Below are positions 1 to 17,690 of a stretch of DNA of 20,922 nt, piece after piece. A program made the translations under genes and the position numbers. The notes below the pieces were generated by a model. It did not search any database. It worked only from the letters and a program-made list of their open reading frames with translations, and had not been told where the DNA came from. Within the stretch, counting starts at the first letter, position 1; every line of letters begins with the position of its first letter. The DNA is from a virus, in the IMG/VR virus record IMGVR_UViG_3300012928_000055, positions 1 through 20,922 of that record; one strand, written 5' to 3'.

Positions 1-3000
1 AAAATTCTGAGCTGAATTTTGTAATACTGTTATAAAATTATCAACAGTATCTTCACCTACTCCACCAGTAGATGTTTTTACATTTATACTACCATCAGCA
101 TTAAATGTATTATTAGTAGCTGTGGGTGTAAATACAAATCTCATTGCATGAGAAGATGTCATTACTTCATTAAGATTATTTTGAGATGCAGTAAAAGACA
201 ATGTAACTTTTGTCATTGGTTGTGAGAATGAATCAAATTCAAATGAAGCTGTTGGTCCAATTGGATGACGAACTGGTGCGTTTTCTAAATGTAAAATTCT
301 ATAAGGATTATATCGAGAAGCTCCACCTACTTGGTGATGGCAATTCCAATTTTTAGGAGTGTATGTAAGAGTTGATCCTGAGTATTCGCCATTATAAAAC
401 TCATCTTGATAATCATGGAATGAAGTTGAATACATTCCTTCTTTAGTATCTATAAATTCAAACCATCCTTGTTGAGATGCCCATTTATTAGGATCATTAT
501 TTATTAAATCTAATACTTGTAATGCAGATTGTGTTTCATTATAAGATATCCAAGGTGTGGAACCACTTGCTAAAGTTGGGGCCTGTAATTCAAATTTAAC
601 AAATTTACCTCCAAATTCAATTTGATGGTTTGCAATTATATAATTTGCATTTGTTACTTTTATATGAAAAGTTAAAGCTTCATTATTATAAACAGGTACA
701 TAATCATCTGTTTCATATTCTAAATATGAAAATGATTGAGTTGTGTGTGCATAACCAAATGTTGAACTATCAATTACTCCTCTTTTATTTGATCTTACTT
801 CAATAACAATATTACCATCTCCAAAAGCAGAACTTCTCATTTTATCAGATAAAGTAATACCATATCTAAAATTAGTAATTATATTATTAAGAGGAACTAT
901 TGAACCCGAGTTATTAGATTGAGCTGAAAATTGACTTCCATTTTCATCAAATTGTGATTCTAAAAAATAAGGTACAACATTTTTATTAATAAATGTATTC
1001 CAAAATCCTGTTGCAGATGTTGCAGATCCATTAGCTAATTGTGTAAAAGTATTTTCTAGAGATGATGTAACTGCTGGTGAATCATAAAATTCTTTACCAT
1101 AAAAATAAGCAGGAGTTAAATCTAAACTGTTATTATCTATACCAGCTAATTGTGTAGAACTACTTGCCATTATACCAGGCATAATTGAGCGAAGAGTATC
1201 AATGCCCCCTACATTTTTATTTGGTATTTCTATTCCATTACCAAAACCACTATACCAAGGATAAGTATTAGCTCTTGAAGCTGTATATAATGAATTTAAA
1301 GAATTTAATGGTGTATTACTATAAATAGAATTTAGGGAAAATAATCCTGATCCAGCACTAGGTCTAATTATAGTTTCATTTCCACCTTGAAAATTACTAA
1401 CAGAACCTGTTATTTGTAAATTTCTAAATACCATAGGACTATTAAATCCTGTTATTGTTGCTTCATCAACTAATCCTCCGTAAAGAGATGATGTAGCATT
1501 ATTTAACGATCCTGTTTCGGGAGTTTTTGCTATTGTAGTATCTGGAGTAATAGATGCTAATTTATGTCTATTTCTTTCTAATAAATGAGGTTTAATTATT
1601 ATACCTGTATTTAAACTTGTTCTAGCAGGCATATAATTTTTAATAGCTTTAAATAAAGATGTTTCATAAAATTTAAGTAATCTATTATAATCAAATTCAT
1701 TTTCAACTCTTGTAGGTCTTTTTACACCACCACTTAATATACTACCTGATATATTAGCTTGAGGACTATAAATGTTTACACCTTGGTATTTTTTAAAATA
1801 ATCTTCAGCTATTTTAGTTAATCCTGGGTATCTATCTCCTGACTGTGATAATTGTCTTGGGTCTCCAATTATGTTTGATACTACACCATGACCATATGTT
1901 GCTATAATATCATCATTGATTTCATTTTGAAATGAAAAACCAACTTCTAATGAATTTATATTTTCACTATAACTTTGACTTTGAATTGGATTTTGTTGAA
2001 CTGAACGTTGGTATGTTAATACATTTCCATATTCATTTCTATCTAAAACTTGGATTTTATTATTAATTCTATTTCGTAAACCAGCTGCTGGTTGATCTAA
2101 ATAAACTACCTCATTTACAGGTTCTAAATATGATGCCGATATTGACATTGATGCAGGCCCATAATTATTTAAAATTCTATAATTAATATTAAAAGTACTA
2201 CTTGTAAAAAAAGTATTAGCTTTATTTATAAAAGAAGATGTATATAATGAAGCTATTGGACCTTGACTTTTTCCATCACCATAACTAGGATGAACTGATC
2301 CTAAAGCTCTACCTAATTTTTTTCTATTAGTAGTAGATTCAAAAGGTGCTATATTTCCATAATAAAACTGATGAATAAAATAAGTATTATTATTATAATG
2401 ATGTGAAGCTGTTGCTTTTCCCTGAGCCGTGAATTCTAATTCATTTCCTAATGGAGCTCTAAAAGATAATAAATCATATGATGAAAAAGATCCTGTAAAT
2501 CTATCTTTCATTCCTTGAATAGATTCTGGATTCATTACATAATCATTAAATGCTGATTGACTTATTGCTCTTCTATAATATCTTAATTCCTGAAATGATC
2601 CAGAAAGACTATCTCCTAGTAATAATCCTCTATCTTGAACTAAGATTCCAGGGGCACCAATAAAATTAAATGGTAGTATAGTTCCTGCAATTGCTATTGA
2701 ACCTGGTAAAAGTAAATGCGATTCTCCAACTTCATTCATACTTGCATCATCACCAACACCACCAGCTGCTGCTTCCATCTTATTCCATGCTTCATTTACT
2801 GATGCTGTAGTTGCCCCAAAAGACATTGTAGTTATTCCTGTATATTTAATTGAATTACCATCATAACCATCATAACCAATTTGTCCTACTCTTAATTCAA
2901 AAGTTTGTGCTGTTTCATTTTCAGTACTTTGGCTTATATGTGTTAATCTTTGAAATTGAACTGACCAAAAATCTCCATTAAAAAATGGTAAATAAATTGG

Positions 3001-5379
3001 AGGAGATTTAAAATATCCTGTTCCAGATGCTCCTTGTGCAACAGATCCTGATATTACAAAAGACATACTAGCATAAGTATTAAAATCAGAATTAATTGAT
3101 CCTGAATAAGTACCTTTAGCTGATCCTGATTGTTCTAACATTATTCCAAATTCACCATGTCCTAGTGTAGGTGTACTAGCGCCGGTACTATATGGATTAC
3201 CTTGTTTTAATAAAAGAGATCTTGAAATATTAGTTGTAGCTCCTACTTTTTCTGCTGGTTTAAATCTAAATTGAATGCAATCTGCTGGTGATAATTCTCT
3301 TGTATTAACATCAAGGAAATTACCTGTTAAACATTGCCACGGTACTGATACACAGGCACTAGTTTTAGATACACCAAATTTAGCAACACTTTCAGTATTT
3401 TTAACAGCATAACTTGTAAAAGCTGTACTATATCTATCTTGAAATAGATCATAGTCATTTTCATCATCTTTATTTTTACCTCCAAATTCACTAATACGTA
3501 ACATTGTAGCAGGTACTCCCCAAATATTTATTAATTGTCTTAATCCTGTTATAGTTCCTTTTCTTTTTACTAAAGAAACCATATTAGCAAAAATTCTTTT
3601 ATATATTTCTTGTCCATGATTATTAATTGGATATGGACTACCAGGATCTAATAATTGAACTATAAATCCTAAAGTTGTAAAATCTTCATCATAATAATTA
3701 ATTACTGAACCTGAAGTTACATTTATATAATTAGTTATTAATTCTTGTCCTGAACCTGTTGGGGGTAGTACTCCTATTTTATCTTCATCAAATAATTGAG
3801 AGTTAAAAGTATTACCATAAGTATTCCAACCCATACTTGTTATGGCTTCATCAGCCATTTCTAAAGGAAGTACAGAACCTGTTAAAGCATTAGATGTATT
3901 TCTAATATCATTTAAAGCTTCTGTATAAAGATACATTTCATCAAATGACTGTCCCACCATATTAACAAACTTAATATATGGATCGTTACTTGTGTCTGAA
4001 GTAATAAAAGGTGGAATTAAATGAAATAAATAATCTTTATTATTATTATCATATAAAGAAGCAGAATATAACATATTTCTACCTGTTCCAAAAAATGGAT
4101 CATTTTCATTTGTACTTCCAAACCAATTTTTTATTACTGAACTTGAAACTGAATATAATTCATAAGGATATACTGATCCTGTTTTAGGCCATGAATTTGA
4201 ACCTGTTAAAAAATATAAGAAATAATCATAACCATCAAATTCTTTTATGGTTTTAACAATATTAGTTTCTTGTGTAGCTTTACTTTGTGAATATTGAGTA
4301 GAAGCTGTTACATCACCTGTTATAGTATTTAATGCTTTTAATTCTGCTTTATAATTTTCAATAGATGTAACTTTTTGATGAAAATTTCTTAATCTTTGTT
4401 CAGCTGAAGAAAAATGTACAAAATTATTCCAATCATCATAATTGGGGTTTACAGGAACACCCCTTTGATTTTTTATATTTTCTAATAATTCTAAAGATTG
4501 TGAATTTTTTGTATTATTTAAGTCTGAGAATGATTTAAATACTGTTGAATTATTTACTTTATCTTTAAAATCAAGGTTAATGTTAGGACCTGCTAATAAA
4601 TTAAATGTATCTACAGTACCTAAATCCTGGGTAAATTTTACTTCATATGCTGCTGTTTCTCCTACTTTACTAACAATAGAACATTGATCTAATAACTTAT
4701 ATCTTGCAGGTAATGCTTTATATAATTTAATTAATATAGATGCTTCACCATTTTCTGTTAATTCTAATTGACAGTTTACAGCTATAAAAAGTTGGTTTTG
4801 AGTAAAATTTAAATAATATTCATCACTATAATTTTCATCATTTAATCTTGCTTTAAATAAATCAAATTTATTTTGTATTTCATTATTTAATATAAAATTA
4901 TTATTTAACCTTATTTCAGTTCTATCAGATGAAATTTCTGATATAAAATATGGTTGTTTTGATCCAATTTCATATTTAAGAAAATTATATAATGCAAAAT
5001 AATCCCCAGTAGAGTATCCTTGCATAAAAACATCATTGATAGGATCAACTTCTAATTCAGTTATAGGTGTAACCCCTGTTTGTGAATATTCATCTGCTGT
5101 ACTAACACCATCTCTTCCTAAATCAACTAAACTTCCATTTTCATCTACAGTTGTTTGTTGTGTTTGGGATGGAATTGTATAATTTTGAAAATTTGGATTA
5201 GAATAAAGTAATGTTTTTCCATGTGTATATATAAAAAATTCTACATTATCTATTTCAGGAGTAAATGACCCTGTTATTATAGATGAAGGAACTACTGCAT
5301 CTAATCCTAATTCATAACCCTGATAAAATAATTCTTGGGCATTTACTGGAGCAATTGAGGATGAAATTGGTATAGCCAT
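1..5379 (-). CDS. giant tail/baseplate-associated structural protein, 3' end outside window
   Basis: The frame is open from ATG at 5379 to the window edge, 1793 codons without a stop, so the C-terminus is missing. The start reads MAIPISSSIAPVNAQ and follows an A-rich leader. The protein is rich in Ser, Thr, Asn and Gly with many TGS/SGS tripeptides, typical of beta-rich virion proteins. Around residues 700-950 there is a segment ending in SFQELRYYRRAISQSAFNDY, which resembles the closing strand and loop of LamG/concanavalin A-like domains (pattern: G.(I/F)(D/Q)E(V/L)R.Y.RA(I/L)S). It is the last gene seen in the virion operon, 6 nt after its upstream neighbour. A role at the baseplate periphery or in host-surface binding is inferred from size, composition and position; no catalytic motif was recognised. 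Structural protein is fairly sure, the exact role is not. Confidence 0.8.
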   Translation of the reverse strand, partial: MAIPISSSIAPVNAQELFYQGYELGLDAVVPSSIITGSFTPEIDNVEFFIYTHGKTLLYSNPNFQNYTIPSQTQQTTVDENGSLVDLGRDGVSTADEYSQTGVTPITELEVDPINDVFMQGYSTGDYFALYNFLKYEIGSKQPYFISEISSDRTEIRLNNNFILNNEIQNKFDLFKARLNDENYSDEYYLNFTQNQLFIAVNCQLELTENGEASILIKLYKALPARYKLLDQCSIVSKVGETAAYEVKFTQDLGTVDTFNLLAGPNINLDFKDKVNNSTVFKSFSDLNNTKNSQSLELLENIKNQRGVPVNPNYDDWNNFVHFSSAEQRLRNFHQKVTSIENYKAELKALNTITGDVTASTQYSQSKATQETNIVKTIKEFDGYDYFLYFLTGSNSWPKTGSVYPYELYSVSSSVIKNWFGSTNENDPFFGTGRNMLYSASLYDNNNKDYLFHLIPPFITSDTSNDPYIKFVNMVGQSFDEMYLYTEALNDIRNTSNALTGSVLPLEMADEAITSMGWNTYGNTFNSQLFDEDKIGVLPPTGSGQELITNYINVTSGSVINYYDEDFTTLGFIVQLLDPGSPYPINNHGQEIYKRIFANMVSLVKRKGTITGLRQLINIWGVPATMLRISEFGGKNKDDENDYDLFQDRYSTAFTSYAVKNTESVAKFGVSKTSACVSVPWQCLTGNFLDVNTRELSPADCIQFRFKPAEKVGATTNISRSLLLKQGNPYSTGASTPTLGHGEFGIMLEQSGSAKGTYSGSINSDFNTYASMSFVISGSVAQGASGTGYFKSPPIYLPFFNGDFWSVQFQRLTHISQSTENETAQTFELRVGQIGYDGYDGNSIKYTGITTMSFGATTASVNEAWNKMEAAAGGVGDDASMNEVGESHLLLPGSIAIAGTILPFNFIGAPGILVQDRGLLLGDSLSGSFQELRYYRRAISQSAFNDYVMNPESIQGMKDRFTGSFSSYDLLSFRAPLGNELEFTAQGKATASHHYNNNTYFIHQFYYGNIAPFESTTNRKKLGRALGSVHPSYGDGKSQGPIASLYTSSFINKANTFFTSSTFNINYRILNNYGPASMSISASYLEPVNEVVYLDQPAAGLRNRINNKIQVLDRNEYGNVLTYQRSVQQNPIQSQSYSENINSLEVGFSFQNEINDDIIATYGHGVVSNIIGDPRQLSQSGDRYPGLTKIAEDYFKKYQGVNIYSPQANISGSILSGGVKRPTRVENEFDYNRLLKFYETSLFKAIKNYMPARTSLNTGIIIKPHLLERNRHKLASITPDTTIAKTPETGSLNNATSSLYGGLVDEATITGFNSPMVFRNLQITGSVSNFQGGNETIIRPSAGSGLFSLNSIYSNTPLNSLNSLYTASRANTYPWYSGFGNGIEIPNKNVGGIDTLRSIMPGIMASSSTQLAGIDNNSLDLTPAYFYGKEFYDSPAVTSSLENTFTQLANGSATSATGFWNTFINKNVVPYFLESQFDENGSQFSAQSNNSGSIVPLNNIITNFRYGITLSDKMRSSAFGDGNIVIEVRSNKRGVIDSSTFGYAHTTQSFSYLEYETDDYVPVYNNEALTFHIKVTNANYIIANHQIEFGGKFVKFELQAPTLASGSTPWISYNETQSALQVLDLINNDPNKWASQQGWFEFIDTKEGMYSTSFHDYQDEFYNGEYSGSTLTYTPKNWNCHHQVGGASRYNPYRILHLENAPVRHPIGPTASFEFDSFSQPMTKVTLSFTASQNNLNEVMTSSHAMRFVFTPTATNNTFNADGSINVKTSTGGVGEDTVDNFITVLQNSAQNF

Positions 5380-17108: not shown

Positions 17109-17144
17109 AAATATACCTAAAGATTTAACAATAACCAAATTATA

Positions 17145-17172
17145 ATAAAAAGAGCAACCGAAGTTGCTCTCT
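17145..17172 (-). terminator. intrinsic terminator at the end of the tmRNA gene
   Basis: On the minus strand an 8-bp perfect stem AGAGCAAC / GTTGCTCT (17170-17163 with 17158-17151) closes a TTCG tetraloop with a C-G closing pair, the extra-stable UUCG type, and is followed directly by TTTTTATTAT. This is a textbook Rho-independent terminator and marks the 3' end of the pre-tmRNA. Confidence 0.92.
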
Positions 17173-17220
17173 AGGATTTTGACGACGTGATCCTTGTTTG
17201 CCGTTAGCGCTGGGTGCTTC

Positions 17221-17253
17221 TTAAGCAGCCATTGCCATTTCAACTTGTTCGCC
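17221..17253 (-). other. tmRNA tag reading frame, GEQVEMAMAA-stop
   Basis: The resume codon is taken as GGC at 17253, giving Gly-Glu-Gln-Val-Glu-Met-Ala-Met-Ala-Ala and TAA. Tags starting Gly-Glu are what I recall for Bacteroidota, where others start Ala. The Ala-Ala end fits the protease-recognised tail, with Met-Ala-Ala instead of the common Leu-Ala-Ala. The stop sits in a hairpin TGCTT/AAGCA (17227-17223 with 17219-17215). The frame is open further upstream, so the resume point is inferred from the tag family and length. Confidence 0.78.
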
Positions 17254-17314
17254 AGTTAATTGCGTGTTGACCTTCCTTATACCCTTACTTACTGTCAAAT
17301 GCCTTTACATCCCC

Positions 17315-17334
17315 ATATCGTGTAAATTTTTTAG
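17315..17334 (-). other. tmRNA intervening segment removed on processing
   Basis: Twenty AT-rich nucleotides joining the two ends of the acceptor stem. In the precursor they would form the loop that closes the stem. Known permuted tmRNAs lose the equivalent segment by tRNA-type processing (RNase P at the 5' side of G1, 3' trimming after the discriminator); the same is assumed here. Confidence 0.75.
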
Positions 17335-17396
17335 TGGAGATGCCGGGAGTCGAACCCGGGTCCAAATAAGCAGCTAATACAAGTACTAGCGGTCCC
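17335..17396 (-). other. tmRNA acceptor piece (encoded first)
   Basis: About 62 nt holding the 3' strand of P2, the T-arm and the 3' acceptor strand. The 5' limit near 17396 is set by the outermost P2 pairing (GACC at 17394-17391) and the adjacent TATATTTA box. The mature 3' end should be A17335 plus CCA added by the host nucleotidyltransferase, because the genome reads CTA there. Confidence 0.8.
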
Positions 17397-17398
17397 TA

Positions 17399-17406
17399 TA
17401 AATATA
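17399..17406 (-). promoter_or_regulatory. candidate -7 box of the tmRNA promoter (TATATTTA)
   Basis: TATATTTA on the minus strand is the same -7 box as in the two 34-bp promoter cassettes and lies just upstream of GGG at 17396-17394. A start about 7 nt downstream falls at the outermost P2 base pairs. No TTG is visible at the right upstream distance, so transcription could also come from the previous gene. Confidence 0.4.
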
Positions 17407-17417
17407 TTAAAGATCTA

Positions 17418-17690
17418 TTAATTTTCCCCATCATAATCAGAATTATCATAAGAATCTTCTATTTTAGGAAATTCTTTAATTTTATTCTTATAACGAATTG
17501 ATAAATCATCTTCCTCTACTTCTGGATAAGGGATATATGATTCTTCTTGTTCAAATAATTCTTCACTATCAATATCAGCATTAATTTTTATATTAGTTTC
17601 AGCCATTATTTCTAATGAATGTGCTATACTTTCTAATGATTCTTTAATTGATCCTACATTAAAATAAAATTCTCTTTCATATGATGTCAT
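17418..17690 (-). CDS. acidic hypothetical protein (90 aa)
   Basis: Not recognised. The N-terminal half is helical (MTSYEREFYFNVGSIKESLE; SIAHSLEIMAETNIKINADI), the C-terminal half is very acidic and Tyr/Ser-rich (EDSYDNSDYDGEN at the end), probably disordered. The strong negative charge is reminiscent of small DNA-mimic or inhibitor proteins of phages, but there is no specific match. It ends about 20 nt before the tmRNA acceptor piece and starts just after a strong hairpin. The start ATG at 17690 follows AAAGTTTATATT without a Shine-Dalgarno. Confidence 0.72.
   Translation of the reverse strand: MTSYEREFYFNVGSIKESLESIAHSLEIMAETNIKINADIDSEELFEQEESYIPYPEVEEDDLSIRYKNKIKEFPKIEDSYDNSDYDGEN

Follow-up and report, generated by a model that had tools for sequence, protein, structure and literature searches.

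The locus described here raises two questions: whether a phage gene in which the 3' half of a tRNA-like domain stands before its 5' half is a circularly permuted tmRNA gene, and from which tmRNA lineage such a gene was derived. The window, i.e., the whole stretch of DNA that was analyzed, comprises 20,922 nt from a marine phage (IMG/VR record IMGVR_UViG_3300012928_000055), and the gene lies on its minus strand at 17396-17174.

Gene order and structure of the permuted tmRNA

A preliminary description, made from the sequence, had claimed a circularly permuted tmRNA gene at this place and had proposed a covariance-model search. This claim was borne out by three approaches that agreed with each other: ARAGORN reported a tmRNA* (permuted) at 17130-17426, the Rfam permuted tmRNA model RF04321 (tmRNA_permuted) gave a full-length match at 17394-17221 with 66.6 bits (E 4e-11, cut-off 47), and the predicted pairs covaried among relatives. 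A few gammaproteobacterial genomes (L372, L373, and L374) also just passed the RF04321 cut-off, with 47.8-49.3 bits, and at least L372 and L373 were one-piece according to ARAGORN; since one-piece loci can pass, the score alone is no proof of permutation, and the gene order was therefore read directly. Reading along the minus strand, one meets the T arm and the 3' acceptor strand (17363-17336) ahead of the 5' acceptor strand GGGGATG (17314-17308), and the two halves are paired across the intervening segment. The series of elements runs from 17406 to 17147, with a promoter-like motif first and an intrinsic terminator last (Table 1). No CCA is encoded after the discriminator A at 17335, where CTA is found instead, and CCA is also not encoded in most family members.

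Table 1. Elements of the permuted tmRNA gene, in window coordinates
Feature	Position	Strand	Basis or remark
Promoter-like motif TATATTTATA	17397..17406	-	directly upstream of the RNA
Acceptor piece	17335..17396	-	5' end inferred; covariance model, ARAGORN, covariation
P2 3' strands	17394-17391, 17383-17378, 17370-17364	-	within acceptor piece
GGAC and T arm	17363-17343	-	within acceptor piece
3' acceptor strand CATCTCC	17342-17336	-	discriminator A at 17335
Intervening segment, 20 nt	17315..17334	-	order and acceptor pairing; predicted to be removed
5' acceptor strand GGGGATG	17308..17314	-	7 bp with 17342-17336, including G3-U70
D-loop analogue TAAAGGCATTTGACA	17293..17307	-	TTTGACA, as in Bacteroidia one-piece tmRNAs
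P2 5' strands, three-part (AAGTAAG, TATAAG, GGTC)	17269..17290	-	covariation
Spacer from P2 to resume codon, 15 nt	17254..17268	-	too short for PK1
Tag frame GGC...TAA, GEQVEMAMAA*	17221..17253	-	ARAGORN; relatives
Helix H5 at stop codon (TGCTT-AAG-AAGCA)	17215..17227	-	covariation
H-type pseudoknot 3' of tag	17174..17204	-	ACGGC (17204-17200)/GTCGT (17186-17182); GGAT (17193-17190)/ATCC (17177-17174)
Intrinsic terminator, 10-bp stem and T run	17147..17172	-	chance expectation, 0.5 in that 1.6 kb

An unconstrained minimum-energy fold recovered the acceptor stem, the T arm, and the P2 core, and a 5-bp T stem is present in the window's RNA. When 43 named pairs were scored in an alignment of 50 distinct relatives (A1), 91.4% of the pair cells were formed, and 191 two-sided changes were observed, as compared with 58.6 in shuffles and 5-43 when the partners were slid, supporting the earlier contention that the pairing is more than sequence resemblance. 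Chance or a tRNA fragment was ruled out as an explanation by this covariation together with the conservation of the tag. The perfect 7-bp acceptor stem, the G3-U70 pair, and the three-part P2 that had been reported are all present, with the correction that the register of the third P2 helix, P2a, changes among sub-lineages; the matched-partner signal of this helix was modest, with a mean longest helix of 6.06 against a shuffled mean of 5.66 and a maximum of 5.98 in 1000 shuffles. G3-U70 was retained in 49 of the 50 relatives and, with the discriminator A, predicts an alanine acceptor identity. Four features go beyond the preliminary description: the missing upstream pseudoknot, the pseudoknot after the tag, the stop-codon helix, and the lack of an encoded CCA. 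In the pseudoknot after the tag, covariation was seen in both stems, with two-sided changes at six of nine pairs (helices 7 and 8); H5 shows covariation between the third base of the last alanine codon and the base paired with it (C-G 27, U-A 18, G-C 2).

Instead of one pseudoknot (PK1) upstream and another (PK2) downstream of the tag, the window has the downstream one only, and P2 is separated from the resume codon by 15 nt, which leaves no room for PK1. From the 5' acceptor strand to the resume codon we counted 55-69 nt in the window family and 59-65 nt in isolated phages, whereas this distance is typically 84-85 nt in alpha- and betaproteobacterial permuted genes and about 95 nt in Bacteroidota one-piece genes, the values outside the phage lineage spanning about 84-96 nt. 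Pseudoknots are typical of tmRNAs rather than strictly defining, as plastid and mitochondrial forms without them also exist, and two-piece tmRNAs typically retain PK1 and PK2 (PMC3985003); since the window family and the isolates lack PK1, its loss is a shared derived feature of their lineage. Tagging in E. coli requires PK1 or a hairpin replacing it (PMC3968760), and for this reason the tagging activity of the PK1-less RNA is only predicted.

With regard to transcription, most of the 50 relatives have ATATTTAT, a sequence related to TATATTTATA, at the corresponding position. In eight sequences, TATATTTAT occurred 13 times in the 60-nt non-coding stretches upstream of coding-strand ORFs, against 1.2 expected, a value that is not corrected for composition and thus retains the AT-rich intergenic bias. 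This concentration upstream of ORFs in the window's phage group suggests that the permuted tmRNA gene probably has its own promoter.

The phage, its relatives, and their tags

Baseplate wedge proteins mark the window as part of a T4-like phage with a contractile tail. The preliminary description had assigned it Bacteroidota-type features, and in agreement, the four proteins tested (gp6-like, gp25-like, HD-domain, and DUF932) all scored best, among isolates, with Flavobacterium phage immuto, at 35-53% identity. On the basis of these similarities, and of isolated Bacteroidota phages with the same type of gene, we take it for a phage of Bacteroidota, probably of Flavobacteriia. We searched immuto and Microcystis phage Mel-JY01 for a permuted tmRNA, and none was seen. 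The baseplate wedge protein of Mel-JY01 (L331) is 43% identical to that of the window, as is the case for immuto's, and the stated cyanobacterial host of this phage may deserve checking. Downstream of the baseplate genes, positions 1-5379 of the window encode a protein of 1793 aa, for which neither Pfam nor PHROG gave a match.

Relatives were collected by pattern scans of IMG/VR, most of them via a pattern containing TTTGACA. The close form was found on 34 contigs and the broader permuted TTTGACA pattern on 110, many of which were ARAGORN tmRNA* while some were other tmRNAs or chance matches. Homologues of window proteins accompanied 66 of 111 pattern-scan loci, most frequently the HD-domain protein (64) and a sigma-like protein (51), and a search with the neighbouring DUF932 protein returned 34 viral contigs, of which 10 carry the permuted gene as well. 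Altogether, more than 60 marine phage contigs have the window-type gene, so that the same gene order was indeed present in related contigs, where it had been suggested to look, and the gene is one member of a large family and not an isolated case. A DNA similarity search against phage records gave only T-arm-sized matches to the window's gene. One relative (L053, from L053:2374 onward) is without the 5' acceptor strand and the D region and retains a long tag; this loss is either a deletion in the phage or a misassembly.

Permuted tmRNAs of the same style were found in Maribacter phage Panino, Chryseobacterium phage MA9V-3, and the crAss-like phages cr114_1, cr50_1, cr273_1, and cr60_1, whose records are annotated merely as 'SsrA'. 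Panino, MA9V-3, cr50_1, and cr114_1 passed the RF04321 cut-off; cr273_1 and cr60_1 were below it. Like the window's gene, these are permuted, PK1-less, and Bacteroidota-like, and they belong to the same lineage as far as tested; they differ in their tags (GKVMNVSFAPTVRQFA, GNVIDINKYVAKLEVAA, and GNFYVTDYTRIAA) and in having longer intervening segments. RAGATH-9, RAGATH-22, and RAGATH-20 RNAs lie about 1 kb or less from the permuted tmRNA in crAss-like phages (L335:518-685, L337:357-523, and L339:663-764). Cellulophaga phage Calle_1 (L333:683-1042) has a one-piece tmRNA, with a predicted tag of 22 aa whose end is not a usual degron.

The host phylum had been described as normally having one-piece tmRNA, and this proved accurate: a one-piece match over the cut-off was found in 60 of 61 cellular Bacteroidota genomes, and a permuted one in 1 of 395. 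In that single case, the permuted match lies among phage replication genes, and the genome has a one-piece tmRNA of its own as well. We also scanned genome contigs to see whether the permuted gene could have come from cells, and this candidate origin was rejected: among the 38 stretches retrieved, those inspected looked like one-piece genes with a chance TTTGACA downstream, with the exception of one phage-like contig assigned to a Pelagibacter MAG, whose tmRNA region is identical to that of the relative L057 (L170/L199). This is likely a phage contig that was binned into the MAG.

The window's tag, GEQVEMAMAA, has 10 aa, starts at a resume codon, and has a hydrophobic end, with its stop codon inside H5. 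All 61 short-tag relatives encode 10 aa, and positions 7-10 are A-M-A-A in every one, third bases having changed synonymously; all three stop codons (TAA, TAG, and TGA) occur, and pN/pS for the tag is 0.40. By analogy with E. coli (PMC3968760), the tag's AMAA end is similar to the degron of the LAA type that ClpXP recognizes. Extended tags, about four times the usual length and misread by ARAGORN, were also observed: one of 37 aa, e.g., GKQVNTTIASIFASLSAIRSLSQETIVAKEQVFAMAA, in seven distinct relatives (L047, L048, L051, L053, L057, L069, and L071), and an unrelated one of 36 aa in L008, L009, L010, and L064. Their length is constant, and all end in MAA (AMAA or LMAA). Codon-level selection on the long tags was weak (pN/pS 0.83, with 0.65 and 0.88 in the other frames), and their predicted translation therefore relies on the open frame and the constant length.

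Origin of the permutation

To place the family, three homologous segments (5' tRNA-like, resume region, and 3' tRNA-like) were compared with 155 cellular tmRNAs, a panel with one beta sequence and with the cyanobacterial permuted type represented by its Rfam model alone. The nearest sequence was a Bacteroidota one-piece tmRNA for 67 of 67 window-family genes and for 7 of 7 isolate or prophage genes, and in no case an alpha or beta permuted one. Taken singly, the segments mostly agreed with this; the comparison of the 5' segment is biased because the search pattern for most relatives contained TTTGACA, and the resume region, which lies outside that pattern, alone gave 61 of 67. Leave-one-out controls were correct for most rows, e.g., 26 of 30 Bacteroidia and 23 of 24 alpha rows, some cellular rows being misassigned.

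In a maximum-likelihood tree of 90 columns, in which most forks were weakly resolved, the phage genes fell among Bacteroidia, and the alpha and beta permuted genes formed a separate supported clade, with one long-branched alpha row apart. Constraining the phage permuted genes and Bacteroidia to one clade had no cost (likelihood 7.9 above the free search), whereas forcing all permuted genes together cost 21 log units and was not rejected by the AU test (p=0.27) on this 90-column alignment. Among the lineage-specific Rfam models, the best for the window was beta_tmRNA, with 40.5 bits (threshold 84), and the genes of the window, MA9V-3, Panino, and the crAss-like phages remained below the alpha, beta, and cyano thresholds alike. 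Seven other phage permuted tmRNAs reached the beta threshold (L299, L302, L304, L306, L312, L317, and L327).

The features of the RNA were then compared type by type. With the alpha (RF01849) and beta (RF01850) two-piece tmRNAs, the window shares the gene order, the acceptor stem, the T arm, G3-U70, the P2 that joins the two pieces, and a tag frame in the second piece, but the D and T loop sequences differ, the resume region has GCN there and GGC in the window, and the window is below both gathering thresholds. With the Bacteroidia one-piece tmRNAs (RF00023), it shares the TTTGACA D region, TTTGGAC before the T stem, the TAA(C/T)TGGCGAA resume region, and the G-E start of the tag; it differs from them in its permuted order, the absence of PK1, a reduced pseudoknot domain, and the tag itself, GEQVEMAMAA as opposed to a GENNYALAA-like one. 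The preliminary description had left the choice between an independent origin of the permutation and a transfer between phages. These comparisons favour the former, with a Bacteroidota one-piece tmRNA having been permuted independently, over transfer from the known permuted lineages, although the AU test did not reject a single origin of all permuted genes.

It is rather unlikely, in our judgment, that one of the known two-piece lineages (alpha, beta, or cyanobacterial) passed on the permutation via another marine phage and that the sequence later converged on, or recombined with, a Bacteroidota tmRNA. This reading draws on the same AU test and on the fact that permuted tmRNAs of other types are common in marine phages: Methylophilales phage Melnitz and Pelagibacter phage Mosig carry permuted tmRNAs, as the window does, and these have been tied to the alphaproteobacterial lineage (PMC9004378). 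Unlike the window, Mosig is over the alpha threshold (67.6 vs 50), and its RF04321 score is 93.6. Mosig's tag, GEDNFALAA, and its resume region, TTTTTAAATGGCGAAGAT, match the Bacteroidota one-piece tmRNA L293, and the whole (L340:938-1276) scores as alpha type; the sequence is a possible mosaic, and the occurrence of such mosaics would suit an inherited permutation. However, the window family is closest to Bacteroidota in each tRNA-like half as well as in the resume region, the alpha permuted T loop (GGGGGCAGTACCC) and D region are different, the members tested miss every lineage-specific threshold, and PK1 is absent.

Predicted function and implications

We consider it likely that the gene encodes a working two-piece tmRNA of a T4-like Bacteroidota phage, which was permuted independently from a Bacteroidota one-piece tmRNA and lost PK1. 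Gene order, structure, covariation, conservation of the tag, distribution, and Bacteroidota-like sequence were observed here, and the number of permutation events is deduced from them. Processing, charging, and delivery by SmpB are steps of established tmRNA biology, and the pathway that we infer from transcription to tagging would run as follows. One short transcript would start at a promoter of the gene itself and end at its terminator. It would be cut after the discriminator by the 3' tRNA processing of the host, with subsequent addition of CCA, and before GGGG by RNase P, so that the intervening segment (17334-17315) is removed while the two pieces stay joined through the acceptor stem and P2. 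AlaRS would charge the acceptor piece via G3-U70, and SmpB would deliver the charged RNA to stalled ribosomes; this SmpB would come from the host, as smpB was found in 0 of 15 phage records searched, including the window and several fragments. GEQVEMAMAA would then be added to the stalled protein, and the freed protein degraded.

The missing PK1 and the lack of a phage smpB would also be compatible with a decoy RNA that occupies SmpB or AlaRS and inhibits host trans-translation without tagging, for which the tRNA-only tmRNA of mycobacteriophage DS6A is a suggested precedent (PMC4131195, PMC11915505). We regard a decoy as improbable: the tag frame, its degron-like end, the stop codon, and the stop-codon helix are kept with synonymous change, and a decoy needs none of these. 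Even less credible, and in our view very improbable, is a decaying or non-expressed relic of a host tmRNA. The truncated L053 would fit this idea, but purifying selection acts on the tag and the structure over many contigs, and the gene has its own terminator and a promoter-like motif.

Phage permuted tmRNAs as such are already in the literature: among 133 distinct tmRNA structures from phages, 53 were classed as two-piece, and almost all of these were marine or aquatic (PMC9004378); the tmRNA database paper recognizes three main permuted clades, i.e., alpha, beta, and cyanobacterial (PMC11915505). In the collection of open papers that was searched, with subscription papers mostly outside this scope, we found no account of a permuted lineage of Bacteroidota phages, of PK1-less two-piece phage tmRNAs, or of crAss-like phages with a permuted tmRNA. 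The family therefore appears to be a large and undescribed one of Bacteroidota phages, including gut crAss-like phages. With somewhat less assurance than for the window's own gene, we think it probable that it represents a further independent two-piece lineage beyond the alpha, beta, cyanobacterial, and mitochondrial ones, born in Bacteroidota phages, spread across T4-like, crAss-like, and other phages, functioning without PK1, and with tags of 36-37 aa in some members.

If this is true, permutation can arise and persist in viruses while the host phylum keeps its one-piece gene, and the further lineage would be confined, so far, to phages of one phylum. Natural PK1-less tmRNAs would provide material to test the role of PK1. 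Moreover, crAss-like gut phages and marine Bacteroidota phages would bring along their own ribosome-rescue RNA and degradation tags, apparently to work with the SmpB of the host.
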